A stretch of 34,591 nucleotides of DNA. Source: Kiritimatiellia bacterium. Lineage in GTDB: Bacteria; Verrucomicrobiota; Kiritimatiellia; UBA8416. The first letter of the stretch is position 1. Each line of letters starts with the position of its first letter. The notes beneath the pieces are model-generated. The model searched no databases. It had not been told where the DNA came from and saw only the letters and a program-made list of their open reading frames with translations. Made by a program: the position numbers and the translations under genes. Shown here piece after piece: positions 1 to 34,591 of the stretch. The stretch is taken from positions 1 to 34,591 of the forward strand of contig SKVN01000098.1 of assembly GCA_007129405.1 (NCBI GenBank), given 5' to 3'.

Positions 1-97
1 AAACGATTTATTTTGCCGACTCGTAATCCGATCTCGTCGCCGTTCTCGTAAACCAGACTCCCAACACTTCGACACCAGTTACACATCCGCATCATCC
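1..97 (-). repeat. Composite repeat, CGAGAACGG-body type, truncated by window start
   Basis: Reverse complement GATGATGCGGATGTGTAACTGGTGTCGAAGTG...ACGAGAACGGCGACGAGATCGG matches 16799-16868. Confidence 0.85.
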
Positions 98-117: not shown

Positions 118-266
118 CTAAGCTGTAACTTCAGTTGTTTGCACACTTACTCCACCCTACACTTACTCGCCTACACTTACTCGACATTATGCGCACTGAC
201 TTTCGAGTAAGTGTAAACGATTAAGTGTGCCCGATTAAGTGTACGTAGTTTCACGCCTGCATCATC
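118..266 (-). repeat. Composite repeat, 14-nt palindromic-array type (copy A)
   Basis: Head 246-266, units ACACTTAATCG/ACACTTACTCG and inverted units every 14 nt, tail variant TGAAGTTACAGCTTAG at 118-133. Confidence 0.9.
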
Positions 267-296
267 TTGGCAGCCCAAGGTTTTACATCTAACGTT

Positions 297-6256: not shown

Positions 6257-6304
6257 TTTTAAGGGGGAAGGGTGCGGGATGCGACAGCTAGAGGCCGCTT
6301 CGGC

Positions 6305-6329
6305 GGCGGCAGAGGACTGCCGCCCTCCA
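6305..6329 (+). repeat. Hairpin module GGCGGCAGAGGACTGCCGCCCTCCA, second copy
   Basis: 25-nt exact match to 2228-2252; 8-bp stem GGCGGCAG/CTGCCGCC with AGGA loop. Confidence 0.9.
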
Positions 6330-16798: not shown

Positions 16799-16997
16799 GA
16801 TGATGCGCAGGTGTAACTTGTGTCGAAGTGCCGGGAACTCGGTTGAACGAGAACGGCGACGAGAACGGTGAACGATTTTCTTACTCGTAATCCGTTCTCG
16901 TCGCCGTTCTCGTCAAACGAATTGGGAAGCCTTCATTGTGTATATTGCGTTGGGAAAACCACAACATCTTGTGTTTAAAAATGAAGTTACAACCTAG
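16799..16997 (+). repeat. Composite repeat, CGAGAACGG palindromic body
   Basis: Head GATGATGCGCAGGTGTAACTT, perfect 22-bp inverted repeat 16847-16868/16892-16913, tail TGAAGTTACAACCTAG 16982-16997. Confidence 0.85.
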
Positions 16998-17018
16998 TAG
17001 GGGCACTTTGGGTGCCCA

Positions 17019-17150
17019 GATGATGCAGGCGCGAAACTATTTACACTTAATCGGAACCACTTGATCGTTTACACTTACTCGAAAGTCAGTGCTCATAATA
17101 TCGAGTAAGTGTAAGCGAGTAAGTGTTCAAACATTGAAGTTACAACCTAG
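17019..17150 (+). repeat. Composite repeat, 14-nt palindromic-array type (copy B)
   Basis: Head 17019-17039; direct units at 17043, 17057, 17071; inverted units at 17102, 17116; tail 17135-17150. Confidence 0.92.
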
Positions 17151-34306: not shown

Positions 34307-34468
34307 AAGGGCAATACTCCTTGCAGTGTGCCTGATGTTGATGCGCAAGAATCCGGCCAAACGATCGGACGGTTTCAATTTGACGGGGAAAGGTTAGTAT
34401 TGTGAAATTGTAGAGTCAACCCGAATAAGGCATCGTCCCGTGGTTTGTCGTATAGCAGGGGTAGCCCA

Positions 34469-34591
34469 GATGATGCAGGGGAGAAACTTTATACACTTAC
34501 TCGCGCACACTTGATCGCTCACGCTTAATCGAAAGTCAGCGCACATGATGTCGAGTAAGTGTGCGCGAGTGAGTGTAGGCGAGTAAGTGTG
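34469..34591 (+). repeat. Composite repeat, 14-nt palindromic-array type (copy C, truncated by window end)
   Basis: Units at 34493, 34507, 34521 and inverted units at 34552, 34566, 34580; conserved loop AAAGTCAGCGCACATGATGT. Confidence 0.92.

Follow-up and report, generated by a model that had tools for sequence, protein, structure and literature searches.

The 22-bp inverted repeat at positions 16847-16913 of the window (the whole analysed stretch of 34,591 nucleotides; it makes up the entire contig C45 of a draft genome of 1.97 Mb in 203 contigs, ~76% complete) was found to be part of a single copy of a palindromic repeat that is non-coding and dispersed in genomes of PVC bacteria, lies mostly between genes and carries its loop in opposite orientations on homologous flanks. 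Our preferred reading, which we consider probable, is that template switching during replication, or else recombination or gene conversion involving the arms, turned the loop around, and that the flipped copy then spread. All evidence on the repeat comes from draft metagenome assemblies.

The first-pass annotation had reported a perfect inverted repeat at this place, and the two arms were verified as exact reverse complements of each other around a 23-nt spacer (Table 1). The complete copy consists, in order, of an end of the form GATGATGC...TGTAACTT, a flank, the hairpin, a second flank and the end TGAAGTTACAACCTAG. When the 16847-16913 region was folded as single-stranded DNA, an energy of -37.4 kcal/mol was obtained, shuffles averaging -16.8 (z -7.7), and none of 200 shuffles was equally stable; the hairpin is therefore far beyond chance. 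An Rfam scan of the window returned no match. The spacer is 28-31 nt long in most other copies, and within these 23-31 nt neither a gene, which would not fit, nor a recognised regulatory unit was seen.

Table 1. Coordinates of the repeat features in the window
Feature	Position	Strand	Remark
Full-length repeat copy, ~199 bp	16799..16997	-	spacer polarity class A
Left 22-bp arm	16847..16868	+	two decamers ACGAGAACGG linked by CG
Spacer (loop), 23 nt	16869..16891	-	~6 nt shorter than in nearest relative C182
Right 22-bp arm	16892..16913	-	exact reverse complement of left arm
Spacer of second copy	1..27	+	class B polarity; truncated by contig start
Arm of second copy	28..49	-	one mismatch (GATCGG)
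Flank of second copy	50..97	-	homologous to 16799-16846
ACACTTACTCG-word dispersed repeat, second family	17014..17150	+	joined to hairpin element; similar ends
ACACTTACTCG repeat copy	118..271	-	adjoins contig-start element
ACACTTACTCG repeat copy	34464..34590	+	at contig end

Copies in the same genome were gathered by searches. The 22-bp arm gave 31 matches with at most two mismatches, compared with none for a reversed-pattern control, and ~20 elements in total were recognised. Arm matches were also present in 22 of 57 relatives. A strict exact-match pattern run over 288 genomes of the phylum was positive in eight, and seven of these (the genome of the window included) belong to a single class; the repeat is therefore concentrated in one part of the phylum. 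The named carriers of the hairpin are mostly draft genomes of Kiritimatiellae, Lentisphaeria and Verrucomicrobia, and one Puniceicoccaceae genome holds tandem arrays of the repeat with a period of ~105 bp. Actinobacteria, haloarchaea, Enhygromyxa and others also gave exact matches; these were set aside because, judged by eye, they seem to reflect a repeated D-E-N-G coding pattern rather than the hairpin element.

Pooling 127 distinct hairpins revealed a common plan of CGGT, a two-decamer arm, a loop beginning ATTACGAGT and finishing AATCGTYCA, the second arm and ACCG. The conserved parts are the 22-bp arm of two decamers, a spacer of ~28-31 nt with unlike ends and the outer CGGT, and the half-site can be written CGGT-nn-ACGAGAACGG-CG-ACGAGAACGG-nnn-ACGAG. 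Half-sites usually stand head to head, which makes the long hairpin, and sometimes as tail-to-tail pairs, singles or tandem arrays. Arms recur across several PVC classes, and loops and flanks vary. With crude gene calls, the repeat was placed in 31 tandem, 17 convergent and four divergent gaps and in 20 cases within crude ORFs, the background gaps being 81 tandem, 27 convergent and 30 divergent; this suggests that the repeat avoids divergent promoter regions, with arrays inflating the convergent and inside-ORF counts. A literature search found families of REP and TIR repeats, some of them from the PVC group (PMC3733652), and no description of this hairpin repeat.

Other repeats accompany the hairpin. 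Enlarged loops holding other repeat-like hairpin sequence were seen at five further loci (L180, L160, L123, L147 and L099) and in contig C65 of the genome of the window, as though loops were preferred places for insertion. The ACACTTACTCG family has ~28 copies in this genome (L329-L356 among them), in which the words are arranged in tandem and inverted around a conserved middle, AAAGTCAGTGCTCATAATATCGAG, that has one polarity in all listed copies. At other loci of the genome (L362, L368, L370, L371, L377 and L381) many different short inner sequences lie between the same ends. The ends common to differing inner sequences, the hairpin among them, are GATGATGC..TGAAACTT and TGAAGTTACAACCTAG, and units often follow one another at distances of 150-230 bp, which gives the impression of one element type with exchangeable repeat cores. 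A third repeat family is represented by an identical hairpin unit, CGGCGGCAGAGGACTGCCGCCCTCCA, at positions 2227-2252 and 6304-6329 of the window.

A second copy of the hairpin element lies at the very start of the contig, on the minus strand of positions 1-97, where the same left flank and arm as at the 16847 locus had been described. The flank did prove homologous, but it is similar and not identical, and the arm, ACGAGAACGGCGACGAGATCGG, which is followed by ATTACGAGTCGGCAAAATAAATCGTTT, carries one mismatch. The second arm, predicted to lie directly beyond position 1, is unreadable in the window because position 1 is a contig end inside the repeat copy; it is present in sister copies. The last 96 bases of contig C20 are those of the window start, and C20 shows this arm; C138 shares its first 121 bases with the window start. 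The locus L182 (SLQN01000385.1) matches C138 at 100% identity over 1596 bp and extends across the whole hairpin, second arm included. L182 has been assigned to a Rhodobacteraceae bin from a sediment metagenome, and in view of this identity it is probably mis-binned. With the C138 side occupied by L182, elimination leaves C20 as the likely neighbour of the window start. The assembly of this genome is fragmented at such repeats, which account for several of its contigs ending inside the element.

To read polarity, all pairs of copies within each genome were compared in the flanks outside the palindromic core; the polarity of a loop is readable because its two ends are unlike (ACGAGT and ACGATT). 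Among the complete copies of the genome of the window, seven were of class A and five (L182 being one of them) of class B, and every cross-class pair that was comparable and reported was flipped, whereas every reported within-class pair had the same orientation. When partial and diverged copies were included, by assignment by eye, the numbers rose to ~11 of class A and ~8 of class B. Both orientations hence occur among the ~20 copies, in place of one fixed orientation, and the proposal that the spacer at 1-97 is reversed relative to its flanks was confirmed. In the frame of the flanks, the class B spacer matched seven of the eight spacers of the other polarity at 39-43% as written and at 75-86% when flipped, and none of 2000 shuffles attained the flipped score. 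The flipped class B loop was 82-86% identical to most class A loops and 75-76% to those of C182 and C45b; for the most diverged copy, C185, the values were 47% as written and 63% flipped.

The comparison extends to a genome of a sister genus (G004). Its L156 loop is identical to the class B spacer at 27 of 28 positions and stands in opposite polarity relative to its own flanks. Three loci of that genome (L156, L225 and L282) are flipped against five others (L119, L132, L143:3321, L168 and L286), and both polarities are found on its own flank types. From the two classes in the genome of the window and the two polarities in the sister genus, it follows that the loop has been inverted one or more times among the ancestors of the former copies, and probably several times in the family as a whole. 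The class B right flank of C20 and L182 is closest to that of a class A copy (C18/L016); class B copies with a class A-like right flank point to exchange breakpoints in or beside the arms.

Could the flipped form be an artefact, the hairpin arms having allowed the assembler to flip the loop? Several contigs that end within the element speak for such an error, but six contigs of the genome (C20, C90, C120, C37, C79 and C86) and L182 from the other bin read right through the flipped form, fixed differences in loop sequence separate the two classes, and flips recur in another genome. We therefore regard an artefact as extremely improbable.

The original suggestion of an invertible segment or of recombination between inverted repeats was borne out as regards a past inversion or exchange, and not as regards an invertible switch. 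The two copies that had been compared are different loci of a dispersed family, and their opposite spacers are thus evidence of past inversion or exchange and not of ongoing switching. A phase-variation switch, in which a site-specific recombinase would use the arms to invert the short segment in a programmed way, would fit the perfect inverted repeats and the real polarity differences between copies. Against it, no recombinase or transposase was found among the 30 ORFs of the window by a Pfam scan (four ORFs had no match), the 23-31 nt spacer holds no gene, and only one polarity was seen among the pairs compared in several other genomes (G003 and JAFIGD). Moreover, C138 and L182, which are one locus in two assemblies, have the same orientation, and at this single twice-seen locus no mixed loop orientation was found. 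The flipped copies in the genome of the window are a nearly uniform subfamily, in keeping with one old flip followed by spread. A programmed switch is accordingly unlikely, since the window has no annotated recombinase, the spacer is tiny and the twice-seen locus shows one orientation, and we give it very little credence. It is also very improbable that the loop even now flips appreciably in living populations through a trans-acting enzyme recognising the paired ACGAGAACGG decamers, which would make many loci of one genome tiny two-state hairpins.

We return to the preferred reading of an old inversion through the arms. Replication would have switched template between the two arms, or recombination or gene conversion would have run through them; the loop would thereby be inverted with the order of the flanks kept, and the flipped copy would then have multiplied into the class B subfamily. 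Template switching between short inverted-repeat arms is known to invert spacers and to even out the arms (PMC8604942), and the loops here are likewise reversed with their flanks in order. Small hairpin-associated inversions are also discussed for plastid genomes. The spacer inversions documented in the yeast study span only 2-5 bp (PMC8604942), and the much longer spacer here, 23-31 nt, counts against template switching. This mechanism also predicts alike arms, and arm agreement within copies was only slightly above the permuted level: 2.01 mismatches were counted within copies against 2.24 after permutation, a small effect (13 of 5000 permutations were as low), and perfect palindromes were not in excess. 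Given this weak evening, sequence recognition would account better than evening alone for the long-range conservation of the arms.

Gene conversion through the arms is a close rival of template switching. Ectopic conversion between oppositely paired copies would flip the core or loop without any local inversion, as alike arms permit pairing either way. Near-identical class B loops are indeed found on two types of right flank (C20/C45/C138 and C90/C120/C37/C79/C86), and the mosaic flanks suggest exchange through the arms; still, a single inversion, then spread and a subsequent exchange of flanks, explains the data equally, and 22-bp arms are short for homologous recombination. Such conversion in place of a local inversion is possible but rather unlikely.

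As to how the copies moved, they are likely to have been spread by a trans-acting transposase working on the hairpin. Neither an insertion matched by an empty site nor a target duplication nor a mobilising enzyme was found for the hairpin element. At the window locus no empty site was recovered from relatives, nearly all matches being the repeat itself. Terminus motifs adjacent on one contig are mostly ~150-230 bp apart, and a terminus-motif search recognised no autonomous longer element with the same termini and a transposase. No recurrent neighbour gene stood out as a mobiliser either, the neighbours being ordinary chromosomal genes.

A REPIN proper, mobilised by a RAYT transposase, was also weighed. 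Its inverted doublets form hairpins, as the 127 hairpins and the folding show here, and the head-to-head pairs, tandem arrays, singles, tail-to-tail pairs and mostly intergenic placement agree with it, as do the Y1_Tnp genes found in all ten genomes tested. Only one of the 31 Y1_Tnp loci examined (L194) lies near the element, however, and its gene has other flanking repeats; the half-site lacks self-complementarity, the folding of monomers was no better than that of shuffles (z +1.2 and -0.3), and the GTAG tag was not seen, tags being judged by eye only. With the remaining Y1_Tnp loci lacking the repeat at their flanks, a RAYT was rejected as owner of the hairpin repeat. We conclude that the repeat works like a REPIN or BIME but is not a REP, because the monomer is not a hairpin and the repeat does not accompany a RAYT gene; a true REPIN is unlikely. 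In the genome of the window, a RAYT-like Y1 transposase gene at L191 (G000:C23:10144-10392) has a different repeat, GGGAACGCCACGCTCCAGCGTGGC, on its flanks, and this repeat looks like the own REP of that gene.

Same-flank loops in opposite polarity document, in nature, how loops of an interspersed repeat of bacteria have been inverted, and the recurrence of the 22-bp arm across several PVC classes points to a sequence-specific factor, either a transposase or a binding protein. REPINs and BIMEs (PMC3116915, PMC3733652) are likewise short dispersed intergenic repeats with inverted doublets forming a single-strand hairpin, arrays and singles; unlike them, the repeat described here has a half-site of two tandem decamers without internal hairpin or visible GTAG tag, does not lie beside its own RAYT, and varies in spacer polarity relative to its flanks. 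Inversions by template switching in yeast coding sequences (PMC8604942) and the small plastid inversions also reverse a loop between perfect arms with the flanks in order, whereas here the inversion concerns a dispersed bacterial repeat with a 23-31 nt spacer whose flipped form has multiplied. MITEs share the small size, the dispersed non-coding nature and the inverted motifs at the termini, but neither an autonomous partner nor a target duplication was found here. Finally, Neisserial intergenic mosaic elements with dRS3 (PMC3733652), compared by description only, are also mosaics of short repeats with ends common to different inner sequences, the common ends in our case being GATGATGC..TGTAACTT and TGAAGTTACAACCTAG.
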